A stretch of DNA of 63,580 nucleotides from an uncultured Faecalicatena sp. (GTDB taxonomy: Bacteria; Bacillota; Clostridia; Lachnospirales; Lachnospiraceae): contig CAOKHZ010000026.1 in the NCBI GenBank assembly GCA_948468385.1, positions 1 to 63,580 of the forward strand, read 5' to 3'. Shown here in pieces: positions 20,723-54,229 of the stretch. Under the pieces are notes generated by a model. It was not told the DNA's origin and ran no database searches. It worked only from the letters and a program-made list of their open reading frames with translations. The translations under genes were made by a program, and so were the position numbers. The first letter of the stretch is position 1. Each line of letters opens with the position of its first letter.

Positions 20723-20759
20723 GGTTCCCCTTCCCTTTTTATGGGAGGGGGACTTTTTT
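20723..20759 (+). terminator. Terminator after degV
   Basis: TTCCCCTTCCC pairs with GGGAGGGGGA across TTTTTAT, followed by a six-T run (20754-20759). A structured repeat element begins directly after it. The stretch 20617-20722 holds no gene that I can support. Confidence 0.75.
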
Positions 20760-20760
20760 C

Positions 20761-20866
20761 GTGTCATAGGAAACTTCGTTCCCTATGACACAAAACCCTC
20801 CGGGGGATGCGCACTTCGCGCCTAAGGAAAATGGCTGCTAACGTAGCCGCGCTCCGGCGCGAGAGG
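20761..20866 (+). repeat. Dispersed structured element, copy 1 (right end missing)
   Basis: This copy is nearly identical to 35986-36093 until the last hairpin. The left hairpin joins GTGTCATAGG (20761-20770) to CCCTATGACAC (20781-20791) around AAACTTCGTT. GGCTGC/GTAGCC (20833-20838, 20843-20848) is a further stem, with a G-T pair where copy 2 has G-C. After GCGCGAGAG the element stops, and the sequence continues directly as the middle of an SDR gene. Confidence 0.85.
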
Positions 20867-21327
20867 GCGGCTGTATTTTGGACGTGTCTTCCATGTCCGC
20901 TTACATGGCACCGGAAGCCGTTATGCCAAAAGGAGCCTATAAGTACGCGGTGGAGAATAAGGACAAGTTTTACAAGAAAATGATGGCGCGGGTGAATCTT
21001 TTCCCGAAAAAATTACGTTCGAGCATGGCGTACGTGACTTCGAAAAATTTTGTCGTCTGGTACGCAAAGAAATGTGCGAATTTGTATGGCTCAAAGGGGA
21101 TTCGCGTCTTGTCCGTTTCTCCCGGGAATTTTAACACGCCGATGGGAGATGCGGAAAAGGAGGAGGCGGTTGCCTATTTGAAATATGCGGCCATCAACCG
21201 TCTGGGAGACCCGGATGAGATTGCCTATTTGTTTCAAACCTGCGTGGATGAACGTAACTCGTATCTGACGGGCGAGGACATTCTTTGTGACCGGGGAATC
21301 GTGTCTGGGAAGAAATTCCATCATTGA
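20866..21327 (+). pseudogene. Decapitated short-chain dehydrogenase
   Basis: The frame encodes only the C-terminal half of an SDR, from the catalytic serine strand (GGCILDVSSMSAYM) through the catalytic Y-x3-K (AYVTSK) to the end (GEDILCDRGIVSGKKF). The nucleotide-binding N-terminus is absent, and there is no ribosome binding site or credible start. The join to the truncated repeat element lies at about 20866. I infer one deletion or rearrangement that removed both the right end of the element and the front of this gene. Confidence 0.8.
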
Positions 21328-35945: not shown

Positions 35946-35985
35946 GGAGGGTGTTTCTTGGAGGCTCCCAAGATGGAAGATTATT

Positions 35986-36113
35986 TGTGTCATAGGAAAC
36001 TTCGTTCCCTATGACACAAAACCCTCCGGGGGATGCGCACTTCGCGCCTAAGGAAAATGGCTGCTAACGCAGCCGCGCTCCGGCGCGAGAGTCCGGCAAG
36101 CCGGACTCTTTGT
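35986..36113 (+). repeat. Dispersed structured element, copy 2 (complete)
   Basis: Hairpins in order: TGTGTCATAGG/CCTATGACACA (35986-35996 with 36008-36018) around AAACTTCGTT; CCC/GGG at 36022-36030; GCGC/GCGC (36035-36038, 36044-36047); GGCTGC/GCAGCC (36059-36064, 36069-36074); a short CCG/CGG; and a perfect GAGTCCGGC-AA-GCCGGACTC (36089-36108) followed by TTTGTTC. Spacing is identical to copy 3 (123 bases to the end of the last hairpin), although most stems differ in sequence. It lies 40 bases after mgtE. Confidence 0.9.
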
Positions 36114-36175
36114 TCTATCAATATTTGCGATGGTGGACGCAAAGGAGAGGGCGGCCAAACCGGAAAAATGGCAGG

Positions 36176-54010: not shown

Positions 54011-54070
54011 GATTTCAAGAAAAAAGTGATTCATTCATTTCAATAAATGACATCGTAACGGAAAATAGGA

Positions 54071-54100
54071 GCCTTGGAGATTCATTCCCCAAGGCTTTTG
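54071..54100 (+). terminator. Terminator after fic
   Basis: GCCTTGG (54071-54077) pairs with CCAAGGC (54089-54095), followed by TTTTGTTT. The structured repeat element begins immediately after this T-rich stretch. Confidence 0.8.
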
Positions 54101-54101
54101 T

Positions 54102-54229
54102 TTATCATATAGGAAACTTCGTTCCCTATATGATAAAACCCTCCGGGTGGATGCGCACAAGTGCGAGATGAAACATGTCGCTAAAGCGACCACACTTGGC
54201 GCGAGAGTTTCGCAAACGAAACTCTTTGC
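54102..54229 (+). repeat. Dispersed structured element, copy 3 (complete, diverged stems)
   Basis: Stems: TTATCATATAGG/CCCTATATGATAA (54102-54113, 54124-54136) around the conserved AAACTTCGTT; CGCAC-AA-GTGCG (54154-54165); GTCGCT-AA-AGCGAC (54077+; 54177-54190); CCA/TGG; and GAGTTTCG-CAAA-CGAAACTC (54205-54224) followed by TTTGCTC. Conserved single-stranded blocks are AAACTTCGTT, AAAACCCTCCGGG, GGATGCGCAC and GGCGCGAGAG. The element ends two bases from the stop codon of the convergent prs gene, so its last hairpin may serve both sides as terminator. Confidence 0.9.

Follow-up and report, generated by a model that had tools for sequence, protein, structure and literature searches.

The window analysed here, the whole stretch of 63,580 nucleotides, carries three copies of a structured intergenic element on its plus strand. 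The focal copy (copy 2, 35981..36112) is full-length, scoring 128.6 bits (E 6.6e-33) with model R2 and 167.6 bits with model R1. Copy 3 (54098..54228; R2, 120.8 bits) is full-length as well and belongs to a divergent subfamily, and copy 1 (20755..20866; R2, 96.7 bits) has, by alignment, lost the last hairpin at its right end. The genes upstream of the three copies are unrelated, encoding MgtE, DegV and a Fic family protein. Past GGCGCGAGAG, copy 1 runs into a short-chain dehydrogenase frame (20866-21327) whose match to Pfam profiles covers the C-terminal part of those profiles alone, from position 140; this frame is truncated N-terminally and fused to copy 1, and the sister genome G001 reads on (L400). 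Folding of copies 1, 2 and 3 beats 200 dinucleotide shuffles, with z-scores of -8.1, -5.9 and -4.6, respectively. At about 130 bases, the element is too short to hold a protein gene. The sequence-only reading of this DNA had reported three copies of one layout. All three are real and share the plan, in full in copies 2 and 3, each of which indeed measures 123 bases with the last hairpin included; but copy 1 is without that hairpin, and the family is far bigger: a pattern search of the host genome gave 46 matches.

The focal copy starts with a long left hairpin, P1 (35983..36021), whose 5' arm begins in a T-rich stretch and whose 3' arm is closed by AAAA in the R2 alignment. It is followed by P2 (36022..36030), read by eye as a 3-bp hairpin with a UCC loop (CCC-UCC-GGG), and by the conserved linker GGATGCGCAC (36031..36040), which might form a further stem, P3, with GGCGC at 36082-36086. 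The two arms of P4 (36041..36047 and 36075..36081, read by eye) form just four pairs in this copy and flank the hairpin P5 (36059..36074), GGCTGC-TAAC-GCAGCC. The element ends with P6 (36088..36109), a terminator-like hairpin found by a terminator scan, and the tail TTTGTTC (36109..36115), which recurs after P6 in the own-genome copies. By pattern, P6 alone has the GC stem and subsequent T run expected of an intrinsic terminator, in line with the terminator-like character proposed earlier for the last hairpin. Copy 3 differs from copy 2 on both sides of P1, P4, P5 and P6, as had been noticed from the letters; the pair CCG/CGG versus CCA/TGG exists too, but it belongs to P4 and its assignment is corrected here. 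A start codon in the internal loop, AAGGAAAATG, was considered and rejected because the motif is not conserved (e.g. GTATTGTATTTTG in G062) and hairpin lengths move the frame, as judged by eye.

Searching the 4.25-Mb host genome (G000) with a loop pattern at up to two mismatches yielded the 46 matches, against 9 for the reversed-pattern control. A covariance model, R1, was built on an alignment (A2) of 30 of these 46, and it found 95 matches in the same genome at E<=0.01; 33 score above 90 bits, and several of the weak ones are P1 read on the other strand. Some contigs of metagenome-assembled genomes (MAGs) terminate within the element, e.g. G000:C52 and G000:C55. The covariance-model search suggested in the sequence-only reading thus recovered a family in the host and in related genomes. 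The same reading had named a match to a known Rfam family as a ground for refutation; at the gathering threshold, the window and 18 named loci from relatives gave 0 matches, including none to a group II ribozyme core, and at E<=5 the focal copy gave nothing credible, the top weak score being 17.1 bits versus a threshold of 40. A word search of the open-access literature, with subscription papers outside its reach, found no description of the family.

The plan is shared by 57 copies from many genera: P1, P2, GGATGCGCAC, P4 around a one-sided internal loop and P5, then GGCGCGAG, P6 and a T-rich tail. The loops and linkers ATAGGAAA, CUCC, GGATGCGCAC and GGCGCGAG are kept and the stems vary. Among relatives, the P2 arms read by eye are CCC/GGG, CGC/GCG, GCC/GGC, UGC/GCA and GGCAC/GUGCC, and the P4 arms include UCGCGCG/CGCGC, CUGCGGCG/CGCCGCAG, CAAGUG/CACUUG and GCCGCAC/GUGCGGC; the possible P3 (GCGC/GCGC) is almost invariant. 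These 57 copies, taken from 69 parsed ones with 12 divergent copies left out, constitute alignment A4, from which the pairing scheme tested on it was also drawn. In A4, 92.0% of cells are paired, compared with 78.7% after shuffling and 31%–55% with slid partners, and both-side changes number 293, compared with 98 and 23–72. Of five measures applied, the count of further pair types does not go beyond shuffling (52 versus 49.5). Both-side changes occur in 9 of 14 pairs of P1, 1 of 2 modelled pairs of P2, 3 of 5 of P4, 3 of 5 of P5 and 7 of 7 of P6; in P5, 77% of cells are paired, for which misalignment is partly to blame. Covariation of the element is strong once many copies are aligned, and it bears out the earlier claim that pairing is selected.

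Further families share parts of this architecture. A sibling family in the host genome (12 matches, L254-L265) follows the P4-P6 plan without P1 and P2 and with other stems, reading TTTTTATGCACAC-GGGACA..UGUCCC-GGCGCG-CGAGTAGGGG..CCCCTACTCG, some units being followed by another unit. It occurs, for example, in the left flank of L005 in the host genome, and many of its members also occur in the sister species G001 and G008. In one chimera (L007/L264, G000:C5:48214-48352), the left half of the element passes at P5/P4 into a right half that comes from the sibling family. L303, L308, L312 and L314 of the host represent additional subfamilies of the same plan with different P1, P4 and P6, the P4 arms of L303 being GGGCAUCC/GGAUGCCC. 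The P1 loop is inverted in L316, in its orthologue L366 and in L371, which suggests a DNA process. In L316, L366, L371 and L373, where this loop is inverted or altered, GGAAACGAAGTTTCC replaces GGAAACTTCGTTCC.

The element is widespread in Lachnospiraceae and some relatives, including gut and rumen hosts with tens of copies. Among 41 relatives, 22 carry it: 22 of the 25 that share the host's family do so, and 0 of the 16 that belong to other families of the order. A sample of 146 genomes drawn evenly across the order contains 13 carriers, 7 of which fall in three other families; for one of these, the single-contig genome G062, the search gave 56 matches at E<=1e-5. A degenerate core pattern run against 84,980 species genomes found at least 120 stretches, and among the 120 matches listed, 98 have Lachnospiraceae-type titles, 19 broader clostridial ones, 1 the title 'uncultured bacterium' and 2 lie outside. 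For this count, Butyrivibrio, Blautia, Roseburia, Herbinix, Cuneatibacter, Eisenbergiella, Fusicatenibacter and others are genera that we take to belong to Lachnospiraceae. The two outside matches come from MAGs titled Anaerolineaceae (L121, confirmed by R1 at E 1e-12) and Ilumatobacteraceae (L220, a pattern match), for which transfer or misbinning is possible. Exact-pattern searches gave 0 matches in viral contigs, and plasmids likewise gave 0 matches. Copies of 75%–78% identity are present in five unannotated human-faecal records named 'Bacteriophage sp.' (MT838019, MT838262, MT836712, MT836374 and MT839494), which may be host DNA. The element is an abundant repeat, with no Rfam match, in bacteria that form a major group in gut and rumen.

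Comparison of the host with G001 and G008, by chaining the flanks of each site, revealed that presence of the element differs between sister species; as these comparisons have no outgroup, gain versus loss is unpolarised. Nine of 16 G001 loci searched in the host genome could be aligned, giving four contiguous empty sites (L377-L380) and five sites unreadable as such. The four junctions, marked by a slash, are GGCGTCTT/TGATTT, TTCTCTTTTTT/CCTAAG, TTTTTCTTG/AAACAG and ATTTCTGT/CAAAGG, the last of which aligns poorly on its right side. Six host loci aligned with G001 or G008: L001 faces an empty site in G008 (CCGACTTTCTGT/CTCTAC), and L025 one in G001 that includes a short stretch without a match; at L022, G001 shows a deletion scar and hence a clear loss, and the other three face an element-less counterpart in diverged flanks. 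The right junctions of L371 and L025 gave no clean alignment. All six empty-site junctions fall in T-tracts, and none has a clear target-site duplication, a short one of which could be masked by the T-tract. Behind the gene that precedes the focal copy, the element is absent in both G001 and G008, and the DNA past the stop codon does not align. Orthologous filled sites exist as well. At the site of copy 3, also filled in G008, identity is 117/132 within the element and 163/176 in the flank, and P4 differs on both sides. Over eight orthologous filled pairs, identity of the element is above that of the flank in four (L014, L005b, L017 and L023), about equal in two (L316 and L024/G008) and lower in two (L020 and L024/G001).

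Decayed, truncated and stacked copies also occur. The T-tract behind a tRNA-Glu gene (L013) holds the element in the host, the sibling family in G001 and an interrupted copy in G008; losses are seen at L001, reduced to P6 in G001, and at L024, where the host has a P1 remnant in the place of a second tandem copy of G008. Copies truncated on the right but with their T-tract junction intact (L004, L037, L039, L040 and L044) occur together with P1-only copies (L031, L035, L036 and L045) and left-truncated copies that keep P6 (L299-L301, L304, L309, L310 and L313). The core of the left-truncated L299 starts 2 bases past a gene's stop codon, and its P6 looks as if it had been taken over as the putative terminator of that gene. 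The motif GTGAATAGTAAC, possibly another repeat, occurs in 11 of 405 loci (L004, L040, L045, L126, L371 and others) and lies near the broken end of the truncated L004 and L040. Tandem neighbours are arranged head to tail and 120–173 nt apart, in 10 rows that represent 7 distinct pairs. Head-to-tail arrays of two or three elements at the same spacing were observed in G021 (L279, L293 and other places).

At the sister-species sites, the left junction is a T-tract behind an intrinsic terminator, and the element takes the orientation of that terminator. Over 96 copies, a terminator-like stem, defined as at least 6 pairs ending at most 8 bases from the left T-tract, adjoins the T-tract in 64; the mirror side has such a stem in 12, and shuffles predict 6.7. 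The 64 are made up of 24 of 31 own-genome copies and 40 of 65 others, the latter chosen from 96 matches plus L067, with the rest cut by contig ends, truncated or not taken. Inspection by eye of the remaining 32 copies found several that do have stems, missed by the rule on account of large loops. In the window, copy 1 was received by the T-tract of a host terminator-like stem (stem 20723-20754, together 20723..20760, plus strand, L018), and another such stem precedes copy 3 (54069..54097, plus strand, L020), both from the stem scan. The focal copy is a weak case, its 6-pair stem stopping 7 bases short of the T-rich stretch. With genes predicted by a crude longest-ORF rule, the upstream gene is co-oriented with the element in 19 of 25 own-genome cases, 42 of the 56 others for which an upstream gene was called, out of 65 looked at, and 18 of 23 examined in G062, its stop codon lying mostly some tens to about 100 bases away. 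With dnaA of G062 placed at 1,912,981, 45 of 49 listed copies, from a total of 56, are co-oriented with replication. This does not establish a preference for a replication strand, given that 82 of 105 ORF counts in the regions extracted, a few of them entered more than once, are leading too and that copies mostly trail a co-oriented gene.

Single-step departures from pairing can tell which molecule is folded. Selection on sense RNA leaves more G·U than A·C mismatches, neutrality or double-stranded DNA gives a 1:1 ratio, and folding of the opposite strand gives an A·C excess. In P1, P4 and P6 of A4, we counted 14 G·T and 38 A·C, with P4 contributing 2 and 6. The own-genome copies alone show the opposite trend in P1, P5 and P6 (13 G·T and 9 A·C). 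Symmetric automatic detection of distinct hairpins over 199 distinct copies, in which a few of the hairpins are neither P1 nor P6, gave 33 A·C and 15 G·T in the P1 and P6 stems, or 48 and 22 without position trimming. P6 has 16 A·C and 7 G·T, and P1 trimmed to its outer stem has 32 and 15; removing two T-tract-adjacent P1 positions (15 A·C and 7 G·T), a step decided after seeing the data, leaves 17 and 8. The fully untrimmed count of 108 A·C and 29 G·T is inflated by a single fixed A·C mismatch at the P1 loop. The host terminators before the elements, treated by the same kind of rule, show the reverse, with 44 G·T and 18 A·C in 101 hairpins from 180 loci (p 0.0013), and element stems differ from them with a Fisher p of 4.5e-5; both p-values are optimistic, as counts from related copies are non-independent. 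Since A·C exceeds G·T in element stems and the reverse holds in host terminators, folding as sense RNA is disfavoured. The hairpins are probably kept for something other than sense RNA, and DNA or the opposite strand is favoured.

Taken together, the empty and filled sites, the seat behind terminators, the co-orientation, the tandem copies, the covariation, the strand bias and the inverted P1 loops lead us to regard the element as probably a non-autonomous mobile one that is folded as DNA or as the opposite strand, homes to terminator T-tracts and brings a terminator of its own. A hairpin-ended mobile element was among the candidates of the sequence-only reading, and it is this candidate that the empty sites, the tandem copies, the many similar copies per genome and the covariation support. 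Weighed against mobility, pairing is maintained between orthologous copies, as in-place selection or gene conversion would have it. On the same side stand the Y1 search and the scan for autonomous copies, which revealed neither a mobilising gene nor such a copy, the unpolarised changes with clear losses among them, the unreadable site pairs (5 of 9 and 3 of 6), the G·T trend of the own-genome copies and the weak stem at the focal copy.

The other candidate of that reading, a small RNA or 3'-UTR regulatory element, sits poorly with presence and absence at the same place between sister species and with stems devoid of the G·U excess of adjoining host terminators. In its present form, a multi-copy structured RNA would arise where transcription passes the upstream terminator and would stop at P6, and the covariation would report an RNA function at each locus. 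Strong covariation and the terminator-like P6 agree with this explanation, as do the both-side P4 change between copy 3 and its G008 orthologue and the element identity above that of the flank in half of the eight orthologous filled pairs. Against it stand the A·C excess in P1 and P6, opposite to the adjoining terminators, the differing presence between sister species, the decayed and truncated copies, and the unrelated genes upstream of the window copies. We therefore regard it as unlikely. The element suggests that stem covariation by itself is no proof of RNA; G·T versus A·C departures, read against the adjoining terminators, separate the two here.

Two narrower forms of mobility name a mover. 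In the first, the element would be REP-like or derived from IS200/IS605, and a Y1 (HUH) tyrosine transposase would move it by working on its hairpins in single-stranded form. Such an enzyme would suit a hairpin at both ends, insertion 3' of a short T-rich target, an A-tract able to pair with the target and a fixed orientation, and a Y1 match exists in 8 of 10 element-bearing genomes searched, some matches being fragments. Yet the Y1_Tnp profile has no match in G000, G013 and G022, genomes 86%–94% complete with 70, 11 and 28 element matches. When R2 was run on 12 Y1 regions, a single element stood out clearly, L353 (76.7 bits), which lies about 1.2 kb away from an IS200-type gene; three more matches were weak (L346, E 0.0004; L354, E 0.008; L355, E 0.07). 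The longer Y1 genes of G062, G021 and G160 (about 230–330 aa), which we presume to be RAYT-like, bear other repeats at their ends than the element, as judged by eye on a handful of genes: GGGGACGG / CCGTCCCC repeats at L346-L348 and a different terminal inverted repeat at L345. A Y1 or RAYT mover is not supported on these grounds, and this form is improbable. No autonomous copy with an internal gene was recognised among the 405 loci. By a strict pattern, 73 of 221 left ends in these loci have no right core within 110 nt, many of them being divergent full copies, and a right core lies within 4 kb in one of the 73 (L116). The second form, a retro-element made from antisense RNA whose T-tract 3' end would prime on the P1 A-tract for a reverse transcriptase such as the group IIC intron enzyme to copy the rest, is very improbable: the opposite-strand mismatch bias, the insertion of group IIC introns downstream of Rho-independent terminators (PMC3522654), and the right-truncated copies with a T-tract junction and P1-only copies favour it, but left-truncated copies with P6 are also present, and deletion accounts for some of the right truncations (L022 in G001 and the L024 tail versus G008).

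For the non-autonomous mobile element that we prefer, a putative cycle can be outlined. An enzyme supplied in trans would recognise the folded element as DNA, perhaps the strand opposite the gene, or as antisense RNA, and the A-tract at the 3' foot of P1 may pair with the target T-tract and thereby help site choice. After insertion, P6 and the tail would rebuild a hairpin followed by a T-tract and might so provide a fresh landing site. If spreading requires paired stems, stem sequence would be free to change while loops and linkers are kept. A seat behind a terminator would do little harm, and P6 could later serve as the terminator of the gene. It is conceivable, and we put it forward tentatively, that this protein-less element is of a new kind and finds terminators by recognising a 'hairpin + T-tract' through pairing of the P1-foot A-tract with the T-run, that the strand opposite the gene is active in its folded form, that each insertion makes the next site, that several subfamilies, unlike in all their stems but alike in their loops, contend for the same terminators, and that the enzyme is one not yet known. 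The element offers a testable case of terminator targeting combined with the supply of new terminators, and it can mislead both terminator prediction and covariation-based RNA discovery. A survey of human microbiomes lists 250 palindromic structured-RNA candidates, 230 of them terminator-like (PMC8040213).

Several known systems resemble the element in description. The bcr1 repeats of the Bacillus cereus group are intergenic, about 150 bp long and present in 39 copies per strain on average and up to 130; the accounts, as far as drawn on here, also give them mobile-element features, a predicted common structure, a T-rich motif TTTAT and a frequent place in UTRs (PMC6542083, PMC2267715, PMC3446304). 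The element is similarly intergenic, mobile, structured, high in copy number and tied to a T-rich site, a likeness at the level of description; it differs in host group and in its association with terminators, which those portions of the bcr1 descriptions do not contain. REPs are intergenic palindromes in many copies with the presence/absence pattern of mobile DNA, and single-stranded REP DNA is the RAYT substrate, according to the excerpts consulted (PMC3733652). The element shares with them the intergenic location, the many copies, the hairpins and the presence/absence pattern. However, REPs as described there are 20–40 bp long with a GTAG or CGTC end tag, whereas the element, at about 130 bp, comprises several hairpins and has, by eye, no such tag, and it does not lie at the ends of the RAYT-like genes inspected. 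Unlike those of MITEs, its ends are not mutual inverted repeats, as judged by eye. BOX and RUP of pneumococcus are likewise short intergenic repeats of a Gram-positive host capable of forming stem-loops (PMC2267715, PMC3049150), alike by description, and terminator targeting is not stated for them in the passages cited. Group IIC (bacterial class C) introns are described, in the portion of the source used, as specific in their insertion behind Rho-independent terminators (PMC3522654), and the element too is seated behind intrinsic terminators in the 64 of 96 copies; but at about 130 nt it has no room for an intron-encoded protein, and it ends in a terminator-like hairpin of its own. By analogy, bcr1, REPs and group IIC introns appear to be its nearest counterparts.
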